From Maribellus sediminis (lineage in GTDB: Bacteria; Bacteroidota; Bacteroidia; Bacteroidales; Prolixibacteraceae): a stretch of 64,000 bases of DNA. The translations under genes were made by a program, and so were the position numbers. The notes below the pieces were generated by a model that saw only the letters and a list, made by a program, of their open reading frames with translations, made no database searches and was not told the DNA's origin. Numbering within the stretch: the stretch's first letter is position 1; each line of letters starts with the position of its first letter. Below are positions 3,414 through 54,593 of this stretch, one piece after another. The stretch spans positions 1,178,001-1,242,000 of the forward strand of contig NZ_WXUB01000001.1 of assembly GCF_011799805.1 (NCBI RefSeq), written 5' to 3'.

Positions 3414-4838
3414 ATGACAATACGTAAGCTAAATATTATTCTTATTGCAGTAGGAACCATTGCGTTGGTTACGCTTTTCTGGTGGCTAAGTGCCGACCCA
3501 ACAAAAGATTTCACGGTAAACCTGGAAGGTGCTGATAACCGGGGTGAAGGTGTTGCATTTGTACAGGATGTGAATATAGGGGAGTACTTCGAGGAATTCA
3601 GCACCGACTATAAACCACTGAACGAAACGTGGACCAATTTCCGCGGCGCCGATTACGATAACATTTCAAAATCTCCTGTAAAACTGATCGATAAATTTGG
3701 CCCCGAAGGACCAAAAATCATGTGGTCGGTTGAGTTGGGTGAAGGACACTCGGGTGCTGCTATCTACAAAGGTTTAGCATACATTCTCGATTACAATGAA
3801 GAAGAGCGTGCCGACCGTTTGCGCTGTTTTTCACTCCTTGACGGAACTGAACAGTGGAGCCGGGGTTACGATGTGGCCGTCAAGCGAAATCATGGCATGT
3901 CGCGAACCATTCCTGCAGTAACCGAAGATTATATTGTGACCATCGGGCCGAAGTGCCATGTTATGTGTCTCGATCGCGAAACAGGAAATTTCCGTTGGGG
4001 ACTTGATATCGTTAAAGAATATCAGAATGAAATTCCTTTTTGGTACACCGGGCAGTGTCCTTTGATCGACAATAATGTGGCGATTCTGGCGGCCGGTGGT
4101 TCAAAAATGATGGTAGCTGTAGATTGCGAAAGCGGCGAAAAACTTTGGGAAACTCCCAATCCGAATGGTTGGAAAATGTCGCATTCATCCGTTATTCCCT
4201 TCACTTTTGGTGGAAGAAAAATGTATGTGTACAGTGCCATTGGAGGCTTGCTTGGTGTAGCGGCCGACGGACCAGATGTAGGTACTATTTTATGGGAAAC
4301 CAATGCCTGGACTCACTCGGTAGTTGCTCCTTCGCCACTTTGCATGCCCGATGGAAAAATCTTCGTGACTGCCGGATACGGTGCGGGAAGTATGATGGTG
4401 CAACTTCACGAGAATAATGGGGAATTTAGTGTTGAAGTTATCGACGAATACACACCTAAAGACGGGCTGGCCTGCGAACAGCAAACACCAATTTTCTGGA
4501 ATGGATATTTGTTTGGAATTCTGCCAAAAGATGGTGGTCCGCTGAGAAATCAGTTGGTTTGTGTTAATCCGGCCGATACGAAAAAAGTGGTGTGGTCGAG
4601 CGGAAAGGAAACCCGCTTTGGTTTAGGACCTTATTTTATTGCTGATAATAAAATGTTTATTCTGAATGACGACGGTACGCTGACCATTGCACGGCCAAGT
4701 ACCGAAAAATACATTCAGCTCGATCAGGTAAAAGTAATTGAAGACGGGCACGATGCATGGGCTCCCTTTGCATTGGCCGACGGTTATTTGTTAATGCGCG
4801 ACTCAAAAACAATGGTTTGTATTGATCTGAATAAGTAA
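3414..4838 (+). CDS. Membrane-anchored PQQ-like beta-propeller protein
   Basis: The 474-residue protein begins with a hydrophobic helix at about residues 8-26 and no obvious cleavage site, so it is probably anchored in the inner membrane with the propeller in the periplasm. Blade motifs include DRETGNFRW and DCESGEKLW. The domain opens with WTNFRGADYDNIS, related to the FRG opening of the two upstream propellers, but the rest has diverged. Cysteines occur in several blades, with no CxxCH haem motif. It is 34 nt downstream of the previous gene and probably in the same operon. Confidence 0.82.
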   Translation: MTIRKLNIILIAVGTIALVTLFWWLSADPTKDFTVNLEGADNRGEGVAFVQDVNIGEYFEEFSTDYKPLNETWTNFRGADYDNISKSPVKLIDKFGPEGPKIMWSVELGEGHSGAAIYKGLAYILDYNEEERADRLRCFSLLDGTEQWSRGYDVAVKRNHGMSRTIPAVTEDYIVTIGPKCHVMCLDRETGNFRWGLDIVKEYQNEIPFWYTGQCPLIDNNVAILAAGGSKMMVAVDCESGEKLWETPNPNGWKMSHSSVIPFTFGGRKMYVYSAIGGLLGVAADGPDVGTILWETNAWTHSVVAPSPLCMPDGKIFVTAGYGAGSMMVQLHENNGEFSVEVIDEYTPKDGLACEQQTPIFWNGYLFGILPKDGGPLRNQLVCVNPADTKKVVWSSGKETRFGLGPYFIADNKMFILNDDGTLTIARPSTEKYIQLDQVKVIEDGHDAWAPFALADGYLLMRDSKTMVCIDLNK

Positions 4839-4899
4839 TTGACAGATTGTGAAACTGAAAAATTGCGAAAACAGATAAAGAAATTATTGAATGAGAACC

Positions 4900-4914
4900 G
4901 ACACTGAAAGTGTC
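4900..4914. repeat. Short perfect hairpin GACACT-GAA-AGTGTC
   Basis: Six-base arms close a three-base GAA loop. It lies 23 nt upstream of the first 45-nt hairpin element, the position taken by AACTCCGTAGGAGTT next to the other elements. It looks like an alternative first module of the same composite repeat. Confidence 0.6.
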
Positions 4915-4937
4915 AAATATGAATAAAGGTTGATAAA

Positions 4938-4982
4938 GGCGCTTTCACGAATGTTGATTGAAAATCAGGCTTAGCAAGCGCC
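4938..4982 (+). repeat. 45-nt hairpin element, copy A
   Basis: Arms GGCGCTT and AAGCGCC pair perfectly and enclose a 31-nt variable interior with the central TTGAAA, here inside a small hairpin TGATT-GAA-AATCA. It is followed by GCACA and ends 24 nt before the start codon at 5007. Five further copies follow within 6 kb. Confidence 0.75.
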
Positions 4983-5006
4983 GCACATGGATAGTTGAAT
5001 AGAATA

Positions 5007-5978
5007 ATGAAAAACAAGGGAATCGTCATATTTCTGATTGTACTGGCAATTGTCATCGTAGGAGTGATGGTGGTCGACTGGTATTCAAAACGTCCCGACC
5101 GGATGGAGGCCAATAAGTTTGAGTTCAGTGTGGATGAATTTAAAAATGTGCCGGAAGAACTGATTCAGTATAAGGAAACCAAAAATTTCAATCCCGGATT
5201 TGAAAAGCCTGCCGGACTGAGGATCAGCGACGATCAGATTTACCTGGTTGGCGACAGGGTGCTAAAACAAATTGACAAGTCCGGTCAGCTGATCAGGGAG
5301 ATTGATCTTGATGACGAACCTTCAACAGTTGAAGTAAGCGCCGATCGGATTTATATCGCCTTTAAAAATAGCATTCAAATCTACGATAAGTCCGGACATT
5401 TAATTGATGAGTGGAGGCTTGACAACGAGAATAGCCTTATTACGGCAATTGGAGCAGCAGATGACAATGTTTTTGTAGCTGATGCCGGAACCAGGAGAAT
5501 TTTGAGGTTTAGTGTTGCCGGCGAACTTTTGAACGAAATTAAAGGGAAAGCAAGTGCCGACGACTTGCATGGTTTTATCATCCCAAGTCCTTATTTCGAT
5601 TTGGATATAACTGAATACGACGATTTGTGGGTGGTTAATCCGGGGCTGCATACCCTGGAACAATATACCGAAGACGGAAATCTGCGTGAGCACTGGCGTG
5701 CGAGTGGTGCGCGAACAGAAGGATTTAGTGGATGTTGCAATCCGGCTCACTTTTGCTTTCTGCCCGATGGAAGTTTTGTTACCAGTGAAAAAGGTTTGGT
5801 GCGGATCAAGGTGTACAAACCTTCCGGTGAATTCTCCGGCGTAGTAGCTGCACCAACAAAGTTCGAAGACAAAATTGAAGGCGAGGCACCGGATGTTGCT
5901 GTCGACAGTGAGGGAAATATTTACGCTCTCGATTTCGACCGGAAAGTACTGCGGGTATTTGAGAAGAAAACTCCGTAG
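5007..5978 (+). CDS. Membrane-anchored six-bladed (NHL-type) beta-propeller protein
   Basis: I take the ATG at 5007, which opens directly on a transmembrane helix (residues 4-23), giving 323 residues. The rest consists of NHL/6-bladed propeller repeats, with phrases such as VFVADAGTRRILRFS, LWVVNPGLHTLEQY and NIYALDFDRKVLRVF. Near residue 240 there is a conserved-looking GFSGCCNPAHF segment with adjacent cysteines that could bind metal or form a disulfide. The stop codon TAG is supplied by the palindrome AACTCCGTAGGAGTT, so the C-terminal Thr-Pro is repeat-encoded. Function is unknown; the context suggests the periplasmic redox system. Confidence 0.75.
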   Translation: MKNKGIVIFLIVLAIVIVGVMVVDWYSKRPDRMEANKFEFSVDEFKNVPEELIQYKETKNFNPGFEKPAGLRISDDQIYLVGDRVLKQIDKSGQLIREIDLDDEPSTVEVSADRIYIAFKNSIQIYDKSGHLIDEWRLDNENSLITAIGAADDNVFVADAGTRRILRFSVAGELLNEIKGKASADDLHGFIIPSPYFDLDITEYDDLWVVNPGLHTLEQYTEDGNLREHWRASGARTEGFSGCCNPAHFCFLPDGSFVTSEKGLVRIKVYKPSGEFSGVVAAPTKFEDKIEGEAPDVAVDSEGNIYALDFDRKVLRVFEKKTP

Positions 5979-6013
5979 GAGTTTGAATTTAATAACACCG
6001 GGCTTTAGCCCGG
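5969..6013. repeat. Composite palindromes: AACTCCGTAGGAGTT and CCGGGCT-TT-AGCCCGG
   Basis: Two perfect hairpins lie at 5969-5983 and 5998-6013, followed by the phrase GAGCGAAGCGAAT and then the 45-nt element B. The same order, including a near-identical GTGAAGCGAAT phrase, recurs at 6299-6340. The first hairpin overlaps the 3' end of the upstream gene. The arrangement resembles REP-type elements mobilised by RAYT transposases; none is encoded here. Confidence 0.7.
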
Positions 6014-6037
6014 AGATAATGAGCGAAGCGAATAAAA

Positions 6038-6082
6038 GGCGCTGATGGGAAAGTCGATTGAAACAGAAACTTTTCAAGCGCC
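6038..6082 (+). repeat. 45-nt hairpin element, copy B
   Basis: Arms GGCGCT and AGCGCC pair over six bases. The interior carries the central TTGAAA at the same offset as copy A. GCACA follows, and the next start codon (6108) is 25 nt downstream. Confidence 0.75.
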
Positions 6083-6107
6083 GCACAAACAAAAGCTGAA
6101 TAGAAGA

Positions 6108-6308
6108 ATGGATCGAAAAAAATTCATACAAACAGGAGGAAGGCTGATGCTGCTTGGAGGGATTATCGCGGCATCGGGTTACCTGGTAAAGAATAACCGG
6201 GTAACTGCCAGTTGTTCGGTTTCTCCAACATGCGGGAATTGCGGAAAATACAGTAAATGCGAACTGCCGCAAGCAGAGGATTTTAAGTCACGAAAAGTAA
6301 CTCCATAG
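6108..6308 (+). CDS. Small Tat-like membrane/exported protein with four cysteines
   Basis: Starting from the ATG at 6108 gives 66 residues; an upstream extension to 6045 would translate the 45-nt hairpin and is rejected. The N-terminus RKKFIQTGGR plus a hydrophobic stretch (about 13-27) closely resembles the Tat signal of the next protein (SRRKFIQNGMR), although here the pair is Arg-Lys. After it come four cysteines spaced C-x5-C-x2-C-x5-C (residues 36, 42, 45, 51), able to hold one Fe-S cluster or a metal. The ending ...VTP and its TAG stop come from a palindromic repeat. I do not recognise the family. Its place before the NapG/NapH-like pair suggests an electron-transfer accessory. Confidence 0.6.
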   Translation: MDRKKFIQTGGRLMLLGGIIAASGYLVKNNRVTASCSVSPTCGNCGKYSKCELPQAEDFKSRKVTP

Positions 6309-6340
6309 GAGTTGATTAATAGCACCGGGTTTTAACCCGG
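6299..6340. repeat. Composite palindromes: AACTCCATAGGAGTT and CCGGGTT-TT-AACCCGG
   Basis: Hairpins lie at 6299-6313 and 6325-6340. The first has a central ATA instead of GTA and supplies the TAG stop of the upstream small gene. It is followed by GTGAAGCGAAT and hairpin element C. Confidence 0.7.
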
Positions 6341-6364
6341 GGTAGATAAGTGAAGCGAATGAAA

Positions 6365-6409
6365 GGCACATCAGATTCAGTAGTTTGAAAAGATTTTATT
6401 CCATGTGCC
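6365..6409 (+). repeat. 45-nt hairpin element, copy C (compensatory stem)
   Basis: Arms GGCACAT and ATGTGCC pair perfectly although they differ from copy A (GGCGCTT/AAGCGCC) at two positions on each side, so both sides changed together. Length is again 45 nt, with central TTGAAA. It ends 28 nt before the ATG at 6438. Confidence 0.75.
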
Positions 6410-6437
6410 GCACACAGAAATGTTGATCAGAAAGACG

Positions 6438-7010
6438 ATGGAAAAGAAAAATAAAGCACAATCCAGACGAAAATTCATCCAGAACGGGATGAGGTTTTCC
6501 CTGTTGCTATCGCTGGGAACAGTTAGTGCTGCCGCCCTGCGAAAGGTAACAACTGATGATTATGTCTGGCAGATCGATCCCTTTAAATGCACGCAATGCG
6601 GGCGCTGTGCTACGGAATGTGTTATGTCGCCGTCAGCTGTAAAATGTGTTCATGCATTCGATTTATGTGGCTACTGCGATTTGTGCGGAGGTTATCTGAA
6701 ACCTGACGCCAATGCGCGCAGTACAGCGGCTGAAAACCAGTTGTGTCCCACTGCAGCCATCGAACGCAGGTTTATTGAAGAACCTTATTTTGAATACCAC
6801 ATCGACGAAGATTTGTGCATCGGTTGTGCCAAATGTGTGGCCGGCTGCACATCGTTTGGAAACGGTTCGCTGCATTTGCAGATCATCCATGACATCTGCC
6901 TGAACTGCAACGAATGTTCCATTGCCCGTGTTTGTCCGTCGGATGCAATCAGCCGGGTACCGGCCAGTGAGGCCTACAAAGTAAAAGGAAGTTGGACGAA
7001 CCCAACATAG
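6438..7010 (+). CDS. Tat-exported periplasmic ferredoxin (NapG-like)
   Basis: From the ATG at 6438 the product has 190 residues; another ATG at 6420 is possible. A classical twin-arginine signal (SRRKFIQNG, then a hydrophobic stretch) shows export of the folded, cofactor-loaded protein. The mature part is cysteine-rich, with CTQCGRCATEC, CGYCDLC, CIGCAKCVAGC and CLNCNECSIARVCP, enough for three or four [4Fe-4S] clusters. Just downstream is a NapH/NosR-like membrane Fe-S protein, and the pair resembles NapG/NapH, which pass quinol electrons to the periplasm. No nitrate reductase gene is nearby, so the acceptor is probably different. Confidence 0.8.
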   Translation: MEKKNKAQSRRKFIQNGMRFSLLLSLGTVSAAALRKVTTDDYVWQIDPFKCTQCGRCATECVMSPSAVKCVHAFDLCGYCDLCGGYLKPDANARSTAAENQLCPTAAIERRFIEEPYFEYHIDEDLCIGCAKCVAGCTSFGNGSLHLQIIHDICLNCNECSIARVCPSDAISRVPASEAYKVKGSWTNPT

Positions 7011-7020
7011 ATTGAAATAA

Positions 7021-8385
7021 ATGAACCAAAAAACCAAAATAGAATCAAGTCACGAGCTACGAGCTGCGAGCTGCAAGTCATTAGTAAATGAGACTGCAAA
7101 CTGCGACTGGAAACTTCATGCATTCAAATATGCAAAGTTCATCGTTTTCGCTGTCGTCTTTTTTCTTTCAACTTTTACCTTGAGCGCACAACAACAACGG
7201 TTTCCAAAGCCTGAATTTGATACAGGATACGAACAGCCTTCACCAATAACACCGGAACCACGTGCCTTAGCCCTCGAATACTTTGATGTGCTGGTACTTC
7301 TACTGGTACTCTCTGCTGCTACCTGGATGGCCCTGAAAAGCCGTTCACGACAGGGACTGATCTGGTTGTCGATATTTACTCTGGCCTATTTTGGATTTTA
7401 CCGGAATGGCTGCATCTGCAGCATCGGATCGATACAAAATGTAACACTTACGTTTTTCGATCCCACCTATGCCATTTCACTTACGGCGCTATTGTTTTTT
7501 GTGTTGCCCTTGTTATTTACCTTGTTTTTTGGGCGAACCTTTTGTGCCGGAGCCTGTCCGCTGGGAGCCATTCAGGATCTGATAGTAATCAAACCAATCA
7601 GTCTTCCAAAATGGCTGAACAAAACGCTGGGATTGATACCTTACCTTTATTTGTCGCTGGCAGTATTGTTTGCAGCCACCGGAACTGATTTTATTATTTG
7701 TCGCTACGATCCGTTTGTTGGTATCTTCAGGATGGATGCAAAACTGCTGATGGCCATTTTGGGCATTTCCTTTTTATTGATGGGAATGTTTGTGGCACGA
7801 CCGTATTGCCGCTTTTTATGCCCGTACAGTGTGCCTCTTAGCTGGATGTCGCGTTTCTCGAAATGGCACCTCACCATAACACCTTCAACTTGTATTCAGT
7901 GTAAGCTTTGTGCCAATTCGTGTCCTTTCGATGCAATTGATTATCCGACCAACGAGAAGGAAGTGGTGAAATCAGGCCTGGGACCCAAACGATTTCTTAC
8001 TTATGTCCTGGTCATTCCATTGTGGGTGGCGTTAGGTGTATTTGTCGGAAACCGTTCGCATGTATTCCTGTCAAAAGCCAATTCAACGGTTTATCTCGCC
8101 GAGTTACTGATCTCGCATCCGGAAGTAAGAAATGATCCCGACAATATTGATGTACAAACTTTTATGTCGCTGGGGAAAACCATGGACGAGTTGGTGGTGG
8201 AAGCAGAAAAAATTCAGGATAAGTTTTACCTCGGAAGTATGATCGCCGGAGGATTTATGGGACTGGTGATCGGAATGACTTTGCTGAACACGGTGGTTTT
8301 CAGAAAACGGCAGGATTACGAACCGCACAAAGGAAACTGTTTTAGCTGTGCCCGTTGTGTGGATTATTGTCCGGTAGAAAAGTGA
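7021..8385 (+). CDS. NapH/NosR-like membrane 4Fe-4S protein
   Basis: The 454-residue protein has about five or six transmembrane helices and the two Cx3CP motifs typical of NapH/NosR (GRTFCAGACP and PYCRFLCP). These are followed by one [4Fe-4S] motif (CIQCKLCANSCP), another helix, and a C-terminal second motif (CFSCARCVDYCP). Family members oxidise menaquinol or carry electrons across the inner membrane. An FMN-binding NosR N-terminal domain is absent; instead there is a signal-like helix and a short periplasmic stretch. The first 35 or so residues are encoded partly by a dispersed repeat (7051-7077). No better in-frame start exists before the helix, so the real N-terminus is uncertain. Confidence 0.8.
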   Translation: MNQKTKIESSHELRAASCKSLVNETANCDWKLHAFKYAKFIVFAVVFFLSTFTLSAQQQRFPKPEFDTGYEQPSPITPEPRALALEYFDVLVLLLVLSAATWMALKSRSRQGLIWLSIFTLAYFGFYRNGCICSIGSIQNVTLTFFDPTYAISLTALLFFVLPLLFTLFFGRTFCAGACPLGAIQDLIVIKPISLPKWLNKTLGLIPYLYLSLAVLFAATGTDFIICRYDPFVGIFRMDAKLLMAILGISFLLMGMFVARPYCRFLCPYSVPLSWMSRFSKWHLTITPSTCIQCKLCANSCPFDAIDYPTNEKEVVKSGLGPKRFLTYVLVIPLWVALGVFVGNRSHVFLSKANSTVYLAELLISHPEVRNDPDNIDVQTFMSLGKTMDELVVEAEKIQDKFYLGSMIAGGFMGLVIGMTLLNTVVFRKRQDYEPHKGNCFSCARCVDYCPVEK

Positions 8386-8499
8386 TAAACCGGTAAATTG
8401 AAAAATTGTGAAATTGAAAAGAACTGACGATATTTTTTAACGATGAACTCCGTAGGAGTTCGATTTTGGTAGAATCAGTAAATAAATAGGAATAGAAAA

Positions 8500-8544
8500 G
8501 GCGCTTACATAAAACGCGTATGAAAAGCAGGCATCGCAAGCGCC
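8500..8544 (+). repeat. 45-nt hairpin element, copy D
   Basis: Arms GGCGCTT and AAGCGCC pair perfectly; the centre reads ATGAAA. It lies 39 nt after its AACTCCGTAGGAGTT module and lacks the CCGGG hairpin. Confidence 0.75.
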
Positions 8545-8624
8545 GCAAAAGGAAAGAAACATTAAAAATGTAGCAACTCCGTAGGAGTTCGATTATGGTA
8601 GAAAATTGAATTAGAATACAAAAA

Positions 8625-8670
8625 GGCGCTTCCGCCGAAGCTGAATTGAAAAACAGACTAAGCAAGCGCC
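8625..8670 (+). repeat. 46-nt hairpin element, copy E
   Basis: Arms GGCGCTT and AAGCGCC pair; the interior keeps the central TTGAAA and is one base longer than the other copies. Its right arm (AACAGACTAAGC) resembles that of copy A. Confidence 0.75.
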
Positions 8671-8773
8671 ACACAAACGAACCAGGATTGAAAAACGAAT
8701 AAAAGCATGATGGAAACCTGGTAGCTGAAGAAACTCTTCCCGCTTCCTGCTTCCATCTTCAAACCAAAAATAT

Positions 8774-10639
8774 ATGACCAACAACGATAAAATAAAAATA
8801 GCACAAAACATCGCCCTGATTGCCGGCATATTCTGCACGGTAGTGGCGATCCTGTTGTTGCTTAATTTCTGGCAGATTTCAAAGAGCGACCCCATTGAAA
8901 GTAAAGCTCTGGAAGCACTTGTTGAACGCCTGAAGCAGGAGCCCAATAACGAAGAGTTAAAAACGGAGATCCGCAACTTCGATCTGTTGGCGCGCAAAGC
9001 TTATTTTAATAGCGAGTGGCAGGTAAAAACCGGCGCTTATTTGATGTTGATTGGGGCAATCGTTCTGGCTTTGGCCTTACGATTTTATTATTCGCTGAAA
9101 AGCAAAATCGAAGAACCCGATACCCGTTACGAAAATGAAATTACCAGCAGGATTCTGGCTCAAAAGGGAGTGATCATTGTTGGGGCAGTAGTGATGGTTC
9201 TGGCTTTTGTCGCATCATTTGCAACCGTAAATCATTTGGATGACTACGATGCCGCTTCAGCTCAGGTGGCCGAAAATGAGGCAAGTGCAGATGAAGATCA
9301 GATTGAAGTTATTGAAGTCAGCAAATCACCTGTTGCTAATGAAACGGATGTGGAACCTGAAGTTCAGCAGGAAACGGAATCGGCTGTCGTTGTTGCAGAA
9401 GAAAAAGCAGCTGCGGAAGAAACAGCACCTGAAAAAATAGAACAGGTAGCTCCCGAAAAAACTGCGGCGACATCTTCAGGATTAACACTGGAAGCGGTCA
9501 GGGTAAATCATAACTCATTAAGAGGGCCGTTGAGTCAGGGAGTAAGTTTTCGTAAAAACATTCCGACCGAGTGGGATGCCGCCGCAGGAACAAATGTTCT
9601 GTGGAAATCACCCATCGCAAAGCATGGCTTCAATTCACCGGTAATTTGGGGTGATAAAATATTTATTGCGGGAGCAGATGCAGCCAGCCGAGAGGTGTAT
9701 TGCTATGATAGAAACACCGGAAAACTTTTATGGACAGGTGTTGCCAACAACATCTCCGGATCACCAACAACAGTCCCCAAAGTTACTCCCGATACCGGAC
9801 TTTCGGCACCTACACTTACAACGGATGGGAAAGCGGTTTTTGCAATTTTCGCAACGGGCGATGTAATTGCCTTCGATATGAATGGCAAACGTCTGTGGGC
9901 ACGTAACCTCGGGGTGCCAAACAATCATTACGGGCATTCATCTTCGTTGACTACCTGGGACGGAAAACTTATCGTTCAATACGATACCAACAGTGGTGGA
10001 AAGGTGCTGGCGCTCGACAATACCACCGGAGAAAACGTTTGGGAAACCGAGCGTGAAAGTAAGATTTCATGGGCCAGCCCGGTTCTTGCTGAAATTGATG
10101 GAAGCTATCAGGTGGTGCTGACTGCCGATCCGATTGTAGCCGGCTACGACGTAAAAACCGGAAAAGAACTTTGGCAGGTGGAATGTATGATGGGTGAAGT
10201 TGGTCCTTCTGTGGCTTATAGCGATGGAATTGTATTCGCAGCTAATGAATATGCCCGACTGGTTGCCATCGACGTGAAAAAGAATTCAATTATTTGGGAA
10301 GACGATTATTATTTGCCTGAAGCATCGAGTCCGGTTGCATATAACGGCCTCTTGATCGTATGTACCAGCTACGGTGTTATTGCCTGCTACGATGCCAAAA
10401 GCGGTGAAATGTACTGGGAAGAAGATTTAGGTACCACATTGTATTCTTCACCGATGGTAGCCGAAGGGAAGCTGTTCATTATGGACAACGACGGTGTAAT
10501 GCGCATTTACGAATTCAGTAAAGAACTGAAGAAAATTGCGGAGAATGAATTGGGTGAAACTGCAGGAACAACGCCTGCCTTTGCCGATGGCCGGATTTAC
10601 ATTCGAGGAGAGAACAATTTGTATTGCATAGGTAAATAG
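8774..10639 (+). CDS. Three-helix membrane protein with C-terminal PQQ-like propeller
   Basis: This 621-residue protein has transmembrane helices at about residues 12-33, 85-105 and 135-155. A Glu/Ala/Val-rich linker (about 160-235) then leads to a propeller domain with blades such as YDRNTGKLLW, LDNTTGENVW and YDVKTGKELW. An odd number of helices with a cytoplasmic N-terminus would put the propeller in the periplasm. The linker is long and acidic enough to extend the domain away from the membrane. It lies between the NapH-like gene and the NuoEF-like fusion, so it may be the membrane platform of the system. I know of no characterised protein with this layout. Confidence 0.78.
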   Translation: MTNNDKIKIAQNIALIAGIFCTVVAILLLLNFWQISKSDPIESKALEALVERLKQEPNNEELKTEIRNFDLLARKAYFNSEWQVKTGAYLMLIGAIVLALALRFYYSLKSKIEEPDTRYENEITSRILAQKGVIIVGAVVMVLAFVASFATVNHLDDYDAASAQVAENEASADEDQIEVIEVSKSPVANETDVEPEVQQETESAVVVAEEKAAAEETAPEKIEQVAPEKTAATSSGLTLEAVRVNHNSLRGPLSQGVSFRKNIPTEWDAAAGTNVLWKSPIAKHGFNSPVIWGDKIFIAGADAASREVYCYDRNTGKLLWTGVANNISGSPTTVPKVTPDTGLSAPTLTTDGKAVFAIFATGDVIAFDMNGKRLWARNLGVPNNHYGHSSSLTTWDGKLIVQYDTNSGGKVLALDNTTGENVWETERESKISWASPVLAEIDGSYQVVLTADPIVAGYDVKTGKELWQVECMMGEVGPSVAYSDGIVFAANEYARLVAIDVKKNSIIWEDDYYLPEASSPVAYNGLLIVCTSYGVIACYDAKSGEMYWEEDLGTTLYSSPMVAEGKLFIMDNDGVMRIYEFSKELKKIAENELGETAGTTPAFADGRIYIRGENNLYCIGK

Positions 10640-10664
10640 TTCCGAAGCAGTTTAATATGAATAA

Positions 10665-10684
10665 CCCCGGGTTTTAACCCGGGG
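10665..10684. repeat. Perfect hairpin CCCCGGGTT-TT-AACCCGGGG
   Basis: Nine-base arms close a TT loop. It precedes hairpin element F and corresponds to the CCGGG module at 5998 and 6325. There is no T-run after it, so it is not a typical terminator. Confidence 0.65.
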
Positions 10685-10707
10685 ATTGAAAAATAACCAT
10701 AAGAAAA

Positions 10708-10752
10708 GGCGCATTCACGCTCAGAGATTAAAACTCGACTTTATCATGCGCC
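10708..10752 (+). repeat. 45-nt hairpin element, copy F (compensatory stem)
   Basis: Arms GGCGCAT and ATGCGCC pair perfectly; the T-A pair of copy A is here A-T. The centre reads TTAAAA. GCAC follows, and the ATG of the next gene is 48 nt downstream. Confidence 0.75.
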
Positions 10753-10800
10753 GCACGATAATAAGTCGTTTGAAATAGGAAAGTGAAGGAATAAAAATTC

Positions 10801-13143
10801 ATGTCAGAATACAAACAATATATCGATCAACTGATTGCTGAAAAAGGCTCTACTAAAAAGAGTTTAATTCCGATTCTGCAAGCCATTCAGAAGGAATACA
10901 ACTATCTTCCTGAAGAAGCGCTGCGTCTGTTGGCGGATAATTCAGAGATAACAGCTGCCGAGATTATCGGTGTGGCAAGCTTTTATTCGCAGTTCCGTTT
11001 GCATCCTGTTGGCGAACACATGATTAAAGTGTGCGTGGGAACGGCTTGTCACGTTAAAGGAGCAGTGCAGGTTTACGATGCTTTCCGTCGCGAATTAAAA
11101 TTGAAGGATGGAATTGATACCGACGAATCGGGCAAATACACCATTGAAAAAGTAGCCTGTCTGGGATGTTGTACGCTGGCTCCAGTTGTTCAGATCGACG
11201 GAACGACTTATGGACATGTGGCATCCGATCAGATAGAGCAGATCATCGAGGACTTTGAAAGTATAAAAAGTAAAAAAGATACCGGCAAAGCCCGAAAAGC
11301 AGATGGAACTGAAATTCAGGGCGAAATCAGAATCGGACTCGGATCGTGTTGTGTGGCCAGCGGTAGCAAGGAAATCCAGGAAGAAGTGGAACATGTGGTC
11401 AACGAAAGTGGTTTACGGGTTAATCTGAAGCATGTGGGATGTGTCGGAATGTGTCACCAGGTGCCTTTGGTCGAGGTGGTTCCCAACGAAGGTGAACCAA
11501 CCTTGTACGCCAAAGTAAAACCCGAAGACGTAAAAAATATCGTTGAAAATCACTTTGACGCGCCCGGACTGTTTACTAAACTGAAGAATAAACTGATACG
11601 CACCGCTGAAACGATTCAAACCGACCGGAACTGGGAAGGTGTGCAGCGTTACGAGATCAGCATGCGCGAAAAACCGGTGGCTTCTTTCCTTGGAAATCAG
11701 TTACCGATTGCCACCGAATACCGGGGCATGATCAATCCGCTCGATTTAAAAGAATACAGAACCCGCGGAGGTTTCGAATCGTTGAAGAAGGTACTTGAAA
11801 CCATGTCGCCCGACGAGGTAGTCGATGAAGTAAAACAAAGTGGTATTCGTGGTCGTGGTGGCGCAGGGTTTCCAACCGGCTTGAAGTGGGAATTTGTAAA
11901 AAAGGAAAAGAGCGAACTAAAATACCTGATCTGTAATGGCGATGAAGGTGATCCCGGTGCGTTTATGGACCGCATGTTGCTGGAATCCTATCCGTATCGA
12001 ATCATCGAGGGAATGACCATTGCTGCTTATGCAACGGGCATTCATCAGGGGTATTTCTACATTCGGGCTGAATATCCGCTCGCAGTTAGTCGTATTCGCG
12101 AAGCCCTTAAAATCTGCAGGGAAAATAATTACCTGGGAAAAAATATTCTGGGAAGCGGTTTCGATTTAGATCTTCAGATTTATGAAGGTGCCGGAGCTTT
12201 TGTATGTGGCGAAGAAACAGCTTTGATTGCTTCCATCGAAGGAAGTCGTGGATTTCCGCGTATTCGTCCGCCTTTTCCTGCTCAGAACGGTTTGTTCGGT
12301 CAGCCAACCCTGGTAAACAACACCGAAACATTTGCTCAAATCTCCTACATTCTGCGTGAAGGCTGGAAGAGATTTGCCGAAATTGGAACCGGAAGAAGCA
12401 CAGGAACAAAAGTATTTGCACTGGCCGGGAAAGTGGCCCGTGGCGGATTGATAGAAGTTCCCATGGGTATTACGATTCGTGAAGTGATTGAAGAGATCGG
12501 TGGTGGCATTGCCAATGGCCGGAAATTCAAGGCTGTTCAGATCGGCGGGCCATCGGGAGGATGTATTCCTGCGGAATATGCTGATACCCCGATTAATTAC
12601 GAGTCGCTCCAGGAGATGGGAGCCATGATGGGATCCGGAGGATTGGTGGTACTCGACGACACCGATTGTATGGTGGACATTGCCCGCTACTTTTTGTCGT
12701 TCACGCAGGAAGAATCGTGCGGAAAATGTACCTTCTGTCGTGTGGGAACTCGTCGGATGCTGGATATTCTTGAAAATATAACCAGCGGAAAAGGCAAGCA
12801 GGGAGATATTGAAGAACTGGAACATCTGGCCGAATGGACGAGAAAAGGAAGCTTGTGCGGACTGGGAAGAACGGCACCAAATCCGGTGCTGAGTACATTG
12901 AAATATTTCAGGGAAGAATACGAGGCACACATTAACGGAACCTGTCCCACCGGGAAATGCATGGAACTGATCACCTATTCTGTAAATGACGAGTGTATTG
13001 GTTGTACCAAATGCGCGCAAAAATGTCCGGTCGACGCCATTCCATTCACGCCTCACGAAAAACACAGCATCGATACTGAATTATGTATAAAGTGCGATGC
13101 CTGCCGGGCTGCTTGTCCGGTTGATGCGATTGACGTAAAATAG
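10801..13143 (+). CDS. NuoE-NuoF-type NADH dehydrogenase fusion with ferredoxin tail
   Basis: A 780-residue fusion. Residues 1-150 form a NuoE/HydC thioredoxin-like [2Fe-2S] domain (C78, C83, C120, C124). Residues 170-255 form a second thioredoxin-like domain with C183/C184, C214 and C218. Residues 290-700 are NuoF/HydB, with the FMN/NADH motif GRGGAGFPTG at 351 and the [4Fe-4S] ligands SCGKCTFC (639-646) plus C686. The end carries two [4Fe-4S] motifs (CIGCTKCAQKC at 732 and CIKCDACRAAC at 762). Related subunits oxidise NADH in complex I, NAD-linked formate dehydrogenases and bifurcating hydrogenases. No hydrogenase or NuoG gene is present here, so the electron partner is probably the next gene. 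Confidence 0.88.
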   Translation: MSEYKQYIDQLIAEKGSTKKSLIPILQAIQKEYNYLPEEALRLLADNSEITAAEIIGVASFYSQFRLHPVGEHMIKVCVGTACHVKGAVQVYDAFRRELKLKDGIDTDESGKYTIEKVACLGCCTLAPVVQIDGTTYGHVASDQIEQIIEDFESIKSKKDTGKARKADGTEIQGEIRIGLGSCCVASGSKEIQEEVEHVVNESGLRVNLKHVGCVGMCHQVPLVEVVPNEGEPTLYAKVKPEDVKNIVENHFDAPGLFTKLKNKLIRTAETIQTDRNWEGVQRYEISMREKPVASFLGNQLPIATEYRGMINPLDLKEYRTRGGFESLKKVLETMSPDEVVDEVKQSGIRGRGGAGFPTGLKWEFVKKEKSELKYLICNGDEGDPGAFMDRMLLESYPYRIIEGMTIAAYATGIHQGYFYIRAEYPLAVSRIREALKICRENNYLGKNILGSGFDLDLQIYEGAGAFVCGEETALIASIEGSRGFPRIRPPFPAQNGLFGQPTLVNNTETFAQISYILREGWKRFAEIGTGRSTGTKVFALAGKVARGGLIEVPMGITIREVIEEIGGGIANGRKFKAVQIGGPSGGCIPAEYADTPINYESLQEMGAMMGSGGLVVLDDTDCMVDIARYFLSFTQEESCGKCTFCRVGTRRMLDILENITSGKGKQGDIEELEHLAEWTRKGSLCGLGRTAPNPVLSTLKYFREEYEAHINGTCPTGKCMELITYSVNDECIGCTKCAQKCPVDAIPFTPHEKHSIDTELCIKCDACRAACPVDAIDVK

Positions 13144-35457: not shown

Positions 35458-35482
35458 AAACCCGGGTTCACCCCGGGTTTTT
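35458..35482 (+). terminator. Hairpin AAACCCGGG-TTCAC-CCCGGGTTT with T-run
   Basis: A nine-base stem with a five-base loop is followed by TTTTT, as in an intrinsic terminator. It would end the defence operon 88 nt after the Abi gene. The CCCGGG core also matches the palindromic repeat modules elsewhere. Confidence 0.6.
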
Positions 35483-49437: not shown

Positions 49438-49466
49438 AAAAGGCCGGTGAAAACCGGCCTTTTTTA
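49438..49466. terminator. Bidirectional terminator (AAGGCCGGT-GAAA-ACCGGCCTT)
   Basis: A strong GC stem with a GAAA tetraloop is flanked by A-run and T-run. It separates the convergent regulator and amt genes. Confidence 0.88.
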
Positions 49467-54546: not shown

Positions 54547-54593
54547 TATTTAGTTTTACTTATTGAAAATAAAACCAACCATTAAATCAGTAA

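Follow-up and report, generated by a model that had tools for sequence, protein, structure and literature searches.

The BOX elements of Streptococcus pneumoniae are modular repeats of several short boxes. Repetitive extragenic palindromes (REPs) are described, in the available parts of two sources, as palindromes of 20–40 bp with a GTAG or CGTC tag at one end (PMC3733652) that usually number more than 100 copies per genome (PMC2817692). Six hairpins of about 45 nt in a 64,000-nt stretch of Maribellus sediminis DNA (the window; C5:1178001-1242000 of the 5.6-Mb genome G000) had been tentatively ascribed in an initial annotation to REP-type elements moved by a REP-associated tyrosine transposase (RAYT), to operon RNA elements or to guide-like RNAs. 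Here we report that Draconibacterium-like bacteria and their relatives carry a composite interspersed repeat, P1-P2-P3, to which the six hairpins belong as its P3 module, that the end stem of P3 is under pairing constraint, and that inverted pairs of units also form the inside of longer elements with terminal inverted repeats (TIRs).

Results

Six hairpins are one module of a composite unit

The six copies are real, with the positions and lengths first given for them (five of 45 nt and one, at 8625, of 46 nt). The pattern GGCGC-N30..40-GCGCC matches the window five times, against a mean of 0.35 in shuffled sequence, and none of 100 shuffles reached five. The end arms, said always to pair, do so in all six, with 7 bp in five copies and 6 bp (GGCGCT/AGCGCC) at 6038. 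At the centre, four copies have exactly TTGAAA, and the near-forms ATGAAA and TTAAAA stand at 8500 and 10708; GCAC or ACAC follows five copies and GCAA the copy at 8500. All six point the same way, on the + strand, each in an intergenic gap of the redox operon, as had been noted. A search of the window with a covariance model found no seventh credible P3, the one further match being partial and AT-rich (54548-54582, E 0.016). Two other GC hairpins in the window, at 35460-35478 and 49441-49460, precede T-rich stretches and look like ordinary terminators, not P2.

The hairpins do not stand alone, however, but make up the 3′ portion of a larger unit. Read from the flanks, the order is P1, a short A/T-rich linker, P2, a second linker, P3, GCA, about 13 nt and a TTGAT-like word. 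P1 is a short hairpin, such as AACTCCGTAGGAGTT or CACTGAAAGTG, often with a three-base loop; P2 is a GC hairpin, such as CCCCGGGTTTTAACCCGGGG or a longer form, often with GTAG or ATAG directly 5′ (by eye, uncounted); P3, centred on TTGAAAA and mostly preceded by A's, is the last module. We collected 295 distinct matches to the P3 model, mainly in Draconibacterium-like and other Prolixibacteraceae genomes; up to 23 of these are weak (E 0.001–1), including reverse-strand matches in loci L085 and L087, the window match at 54548 and one in L316 at 5774, and some are surely chance. A triloop P1, most often with the loop GAA (56) or GTA (21), accompanies 145 of the 295, compared with 18 when the flanks are shuffled; P2-type hairpins accompany 180, ending 21–24 nt 5′ of P3 in 147. 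Not every copy has every module: those at 8500 and 8625 have P1 without P2. Among the 287 matches with at least five of six stem pairs, P3 is 45 nt long in 199, 44 in 58 and 46 in 15, although the model itself favours 45. The interiors, thought to vary strongly, do differ between copies but not freely, the TTGAAAA centre and several flanking columns being conserved (119 copies of 45 nt).

Two further stem forms occur: a second class, CGTCCGG...CCGGACG, of 46 nt at 16 sites in the genome of the window, and a third variant, CGTTCGG...CCGAACG, in Draconibacterium orientale. A candidate mini-hairpin between P2 and P3 (GCGAAGC/GTGAAAC) was found in 42 of 295 matches versus 33 in shuffles and is therefore not claimed as a module. 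The loop of P2 may also pair with the centre of P3, a candidate interaction noticed in the sequences. Three unusual arrangements were also seen. At G000:C6:364888-375169 (L015-L018), a stretch of about 10 kb contains four P3-like copies that are nearly identical and share another interior (CGCTATG.CC..GATCAATGATGCCTGGTTGTT); a P3 copy of 66 nt (L320:5984-6062) has its 3′ part apparently interrupted by another palindromic repeat (TGCCTGCCTGACGGTAGGCAGGCA); and L085 and L087 (genomes G011 and G031) hold tandem arrays of P3-bearing units at a regular spacing of about 455–459 bp, with the weak reverse-strand matches in between.

The end stem of P3 is under pairing constraint

The statement that both sides of the stem change together holds in many more copies, and the resulting case for a selected hairpin is strengthened by three sets of matches. 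In an alignment of redox-operon matches fitted to the model (36 rows, two of them weak), 97.1% of stem cells are paired and both partners have changed in 23 cells, where shuffles give 5.6 and none of 500 is as high; when the partners are slid, pairing drops to 23–52%. Over 68 dereplicated 45-mers, covariation is strongest at stem pairs 3, 6 and 4, which rank first to third among all column pairs, another stem pair ranks eighth, and no inner helix is seen in the loop, the strongest pair-like covariation being that of the outer stem only. The third set comprises 167 matches with at least five of six pairs (G.T counted as paired; 8 of 295 dropped and 120 exact-pattern matches excluded). Here at least three of the four Watson-Crick forms are seen at each of stem pairs 3 to 6 and, rarely, three at each of the remaining two, and the departures from Watson-Crick pairing are 21 G.T, 8 A.C and 8 other.

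A single gap illustrates the path of change, with the stems GGCGCAT/ATGCGCC in L090, GGCGCAT/ATGTGCC in L091 and GGCACAT/ATGTGCC in L088, that is, G-C, G.U and A-U. The 33-nt interior is identical in L090 and L091 and differs at 8 of 33 places in L088. P3 thus has a covarying stem, as cis-acting structured RNAs do.

Units recur in the same gaps of redox operons, always in sense

The redox operon encodes PQQ-type beta-propellers, an NHL-repeat protein, two 4Fe-4S proteins, a NuoE/NuoF-like fusion (Pfam scan) and a small protein with no Pfam match. We compared 23 operons of the same genus (the window, L090, L091, L092, L094 and L305-L322), several of which are cut by contig ends; matches to g7021 in genomes G015 and G023 lie outside this set. 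P3 is present in 20 of the 23, or in 17 of 20 without the three operons (L092, L094 and L091, from G027, G028 and G032) that had been chosen through their P3 matches. It recurs across species in the same operon gaps: five of six gaps are occupied, g6405–g7021 being the empty one, and all 34 copies are in sense (the weak matches at window 54548 and at 5774 in L316, E 0.037, are excluded). Redox operons of two other families (L323 and L324) have no P3.

Gap lengths, taken as distances between tblastn match edges and available mainly for g4995–g6045 and g6045–g6405, differ with occupancy. Of 17 P3-bearing gaps, 13 measure 133–169 nt (the others 86, 112, 305 and 324), whereas 17 of the 24 same-genus gaps without P3 are at most 34 nt long, nine of these at most 11. 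By eye, the unit often starts at P1, where the upstream stop codon is frequently found, and its tail stops a few bases short of the following ATG.

A sense bias is also found beyond this operon. The named loci listed gave 126 places, 95 of them with both neighbours, 17 at an edge and 14 inside an open reading frame (ORF) of at least 100 aa. Among the 95, 63 lie between two sense genes and 7 between two antisense genes, with 20 co-directional with the upstream gene only and 5 with the downstream gene only. Relatives with long flanks (n = 44) gave 25 both-sense, 3 both-antisense, 3 and 4 mixed, 7 edge and 2 inside. Among the 198 copies with enough flank, 89 have, within 120 nt on their sense side, an ATG that starts a frame of at least 60 codons; for the antisense side the number is 15. 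The ORF calls behind these counts are mechanical, and the orientation counts are not independent because related operons recur in the sets. The proposal of an operon RNA element fits this placement; as to function it stays unproven.

Coordinates of the modules and of the redox operon in the window are collected in Table 1.

Table 1. Repeat modules and the redox operon in the window
Feature	Position	Strand	Sequence or stem	Gap	Remarks
P1-type hairpin, copy 1	4900..4914	+	GACACTGAAAGTGTC		
P3 hairpin, copy 1	4938..4982	+	GGCGCTT/AAGCGCC	g3414–g4995	45 nt
P1 hairpin, copy 2	5968..5984	+	AAACTCCGTAGGAGTTT		loop GTA; holds upstream ORF stop TAG 5976-5978
P2 hairpin, copy 2	5998..6013	+	CCGGGCTTTAGCCCGG		
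P3 hairpin, copy 2	6038..6082	+	GGCGCT/AGCGCC	g4995–g6045	stem of 6 bp
P1 hairpin, copy 3	6299..6313	+	AACTCCATAGGAGTT		loop ATA
P2 hairpin, copy 3	6325..6340	+	CCGGGTTTTAACCCGG		
P3 hairpin, copy 3	6365..6409	+	GGCACAT/ATGTGCC	g6045–g6405	
P1 hairpin, copy 4	8447..8459	+	ACTCCGTAGGAGT		
P3 hairpin, copy 4	8500..8544	+	GGCGCTT/AAGCGCC	g7021–g8774	no P2 seen
P1 hairpin, copy 5	8576..8588	+	ACTCCGTAGGAGT		
P3 hairpin, copy 5	8625..8670	+	GGCGCTT/AAGCGCC		46 nt; tandem with copy 4; no P2 seen
P2 hairpin, copy 6	10665..10684	+	CCCCGGGTTTTAACCCGGGG		
P3 hairpin, copy 6	10708..10752	+	GGCGCAT/ATGCGCC	g8774–g10801	
Redox operon holding P3 elements	3414..13143	+			Pfam scan

Copies number in the dozens in the genome of the window and are found mainly in Prolixibacteraceae

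Two covariance models were used, R1 built from 13 copies and R2 from 87. The genome of the window has 36 matches with R1 at E ≤ 1 and 27 with R2 at E ≤ 1e-5, so that the search of the whole genome proposed in the initial annotation yields dozens of class-1 copies, not hundreds. The placement between redox genes only, true of the window, does not extend to the genome, where other copies exist. With R1 at E ≤ 0.001, matches were found in 32 of 37 same-genus genomes (its own included) and, both weakly, in 2 of the 24 genomes taken from the order's other families; an order-wide search gave matches at E ≤ 1e-5 in 5 of 198 genomes, two of the same genus and the other three being L301, L302 and L303, of which the last proved to be a tRNA-Asp gene and was rejected. 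An exact-pattern scan of named genomes returned at least 116 stretches. Among the matches listed are Draconibacterium, Maribellus, Mariniphaga, Prolixibacter, Tangfeifania, Gaoshiqia, Labilibaculum and many Prolixibacteraceae metagenome-assembled genomes, as well as some such assemblies labelled Odoribacter, Chitinophaga and Comamonadaceae. The matches in Comamonadaceae (L193) and Sphingopyxis (L257) lie inside ORFs, look like chance and are counted in the 14 intragenic places given above.

A longer form carries terminal inverted repeats and target duplications

Subfamilies of TIR elements occur in the genome of the window (L048-L054, L056 and L059) and in D. orientale (L192, L205, L228, L230, L232 and L244). 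Their ends, CTACCCTTTATACACA and CTACGGTGTACACACAA, are inverted repeats of about 16 bp, and their inner order is P3'-P2'-P1'-P1-P2-P3, that is, two units inverted. Members within a subfamily are near-identical (L049 and L053 lack some inner parts), and lengths are 362–413 bp in the former genome and 382–385 bp in D. orientale, mostly 382–405 bp. Twelve elements had ends that could be paired (L048, L049, L205 and L230 gave no pair within limits). Exact direct duplications of 9–11 bp flank five of the twelve (L052, L053, L054, L059 and L244), and near-exact or offset ones, which may include chance, flank another five; L051 and L056 have none (counts without a shuffled control). The long form therefore has the TIRs and target-site duplications of a miniature inverted-repeat transposable element (MITE), and the sequence has been mobile.

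What moved it? Target duplications of 9–11 bp point to an enzyme of the DDE type that would have acted in trans, and such duplications together with TIRs are not how Y1 enzymes are known to work. In D. orientale no autonomous partner was seen, as 20 of its 23 TIR matches form ten pairs 336–385 bp apart, with three unpaired; in the genome of the window, a TIR search allowing up to 3 mismatches gave 31 matches versus 17 in controls. In the gap sequences viewed, single operon units have no consistent end repeat by eye. Head-to-head P3 pairs lie at C5:326768/327026 and C5:600123/600384, and the first of these has no such TIRs by eye.

Discussion

Our findings that P3 keeps its stem paired through change, that it recurs in the same operon gaps across species and that all redox-operon copies are in sense are consistent with a mosaic repeat like a MITE or a bacterial interspersed mosaic element (BIME), single units of which persist as sense-oriented intercistronic spacers, probably forming hairpins in the transcript. 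We put the probability of this reading at slightly under one half (about 0.48). Single units would have been moved by some enzyme in trans and then spread, or been inherited, as intercistronic spacers, the sense direction being kept in the main because the units are functional, or at least harmless, in the transcript. P1 would end the upstream gene, whose stop codon falls inside P1 in several gaps; P2 and P3 would fold in the mRNA; and the A-rich tail 3′ of P3 would form a leader just before the next start codon. A unit would probably affect how the mRNA is processed, how stable it is or how translation of the downstream gene starts.

In which molecule does the unit fold? The RNA fold of one whole unit has z = -3.0 and the fold as DNA is as significant (z = -3.1), and the P3 stem appears in only three of the six minimum-energy RNA folds (6038, 8500 and 8625, but not 4938, 6365 or 10708), so that folding energies do not settle the molecule. 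Where one partner of a stem pair has changed, G.T on the sense strand exceeds A.C by 21 to 8, and this excess, together with the sense bias, leads us to lean towards the transcript, in which P3 probably folds as a hairpin.

Besides the folds, several observations weigh against a role in the transcript. The wobble excess is modest, the copies are related, and both the model and the filter lean towards G.T; moreover, transcription-linked C-to-T change could mimic it. The bias in placement is weaker in the genome of the window itself (n = 32: 16 both-sense, 4 both-antisense, 7 and 4 mixed, 1 edge). Three same-genus redox operons (L306, L307 and L311) have no P3, which is therefore dispensable, and 7 of the 24 gaps without P3 are still long, at 80–645 nt.

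The unit could instead be a selfish REP- or BIME-like repeat of single-stranded DNA, with P1, P2 and P3 recognised and copied by a Y1 (HUH) enzyme like those of subclass 1.2, and with intergenic placement being merely what selection tolerates. The genome has seven Y1 genes. Subclass 1.2 has the signature Y---Q--HH and is generally without the typical terminal IS200 structures, according to the available part of PMC6006769, and six of the seven translations fit the signature by eye, the L030 translation being cut short. Triloop hairpins like P1 lie on both sides within 400 nt of four of the seven genes (L024, L026, L028 and L030; no chance control), the L030 gene lying in addition between inverted 17-nt copies of CGCCCTGAAAGGGCAGT, and the interspersed mosaic and the head-to-head pairs, which resemble REPINs (paired REPs), also agree with a REP-type origin. 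However, the seven 3.3-kb loci (1.5 kb on each side) contain no R2 match to P3 at E ≤ 1 and no match to the class-2 pattern, so that the same hairpin, looked for beside these genes at the suggestion of the initial annotation, flanks none of them and only P1-type hairpins are found there. Loose-pattern matches in L024, L025 (40 nt) and L026 (45 nt) lack the TTGAAA centre, are not called by the model and were rejected. In addition, 27–36 class-1 copies and 16 class-2 sites are few for REPs, and the form that is visibly mobile has TIRs and 9–11-bp duplications. We consider copying by Y1 unlikely.

Another possibility is that the unit is a pure passenger, the inside of a TIR MITE, with the operon singles as decayed, functionless halves and their pairing left from recent common origin. 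That the long elements of both genomes contain two inverted units fits this explanation. However, the stems of singles in operon gaps have different letters and still pair, gap g3414–g4995 holds a class-2 stem in L090 where the window has class 1, the 34 operon copies share one direction, and the head-to-head pair at C5:326768/327026 shows no such TIRs by eye. These points make a pure passenger improbable. Guide-like RNAs, for which the variable arms between fixed ends might speak, are very improbable: of the two window copies searched against phages, copy 1 gave no match and copy 5 only chance-level matches of 21–22 nt (E 0.02–0.07), one whole unit had no plasmid match, the arms share column preferences, and no recurrent transposase or effector gene was recognised near P3 (684 ORFs from 116 named loci; the 25 largest and most widespread clusters viewed by eye, by first residues).

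If, as the preferred reading has it, single units persist as sense-oriented spacers, a bolder version can be envisioned. The unit might be a portable, mobile-derived RNA cassette that, once between two genes of an operon, brings together the stop codon of the first, a hairpin pair for processing or protection and the leader from which ribosomes start on the second; the genus would have repeatedly rebuilt the expression ratios of one redox operon by such insertions, and P3, whose 33-nt loop is near-fixed in length and has UUGAAAA at its centre, would be the binding site of an RNA-binding protein or ribonuclease. We regard this version as doubtful and offer it as speculation. Should retention in operons in the sense direction only reflect function, the unit would be a mobile repeat turned operon-building part, present or absent at the same gaps in many species, and the action of a REP/BIME-like repeat in mRNA would become testable by comparison and simple deletions.

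Finally, how does the unit compare with described systems? Like BIMEs, REPs and REPINs, it combines short palindromes with other motifs in fixed order, is dispersed outside genes and forms head-to-head pairs. Unlike a REP, P3 is not a perfect palindrome but a 45-nt element with a 6-bp stem and a 33-nt interior, and it has a few dozen copies, is absent beside the seven Y1 genes and is sense-biased in operons. The long form resembles MITEs in its TIRs and in the exact duplications, whereas single operon units show no such TIRs by eye and no autonomous partner was seen. BOX elements are likewise modular but, as generally described, differ in module structure. With structured RNAs of the Rfam kind P3 shares a covarying stem and conserved loop letters, but no match in Rfam 15 was found at the gathering score, nor at E up to 1 over the region 4800-10830, which leaves P3 as a covariance-defined hairpin with a weakly conserved loop of near-fixed length and no counterpart in that collection. 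P1-P2-P3 is not described in the literature searched on interspersed repeats, including the available parts of PMC3733652, PMC6006769 and PMC12306157. Taken together, the unit looks less like an entirely novel kind of system than like an undescribed relative of bacterial interspersed repeats already known.

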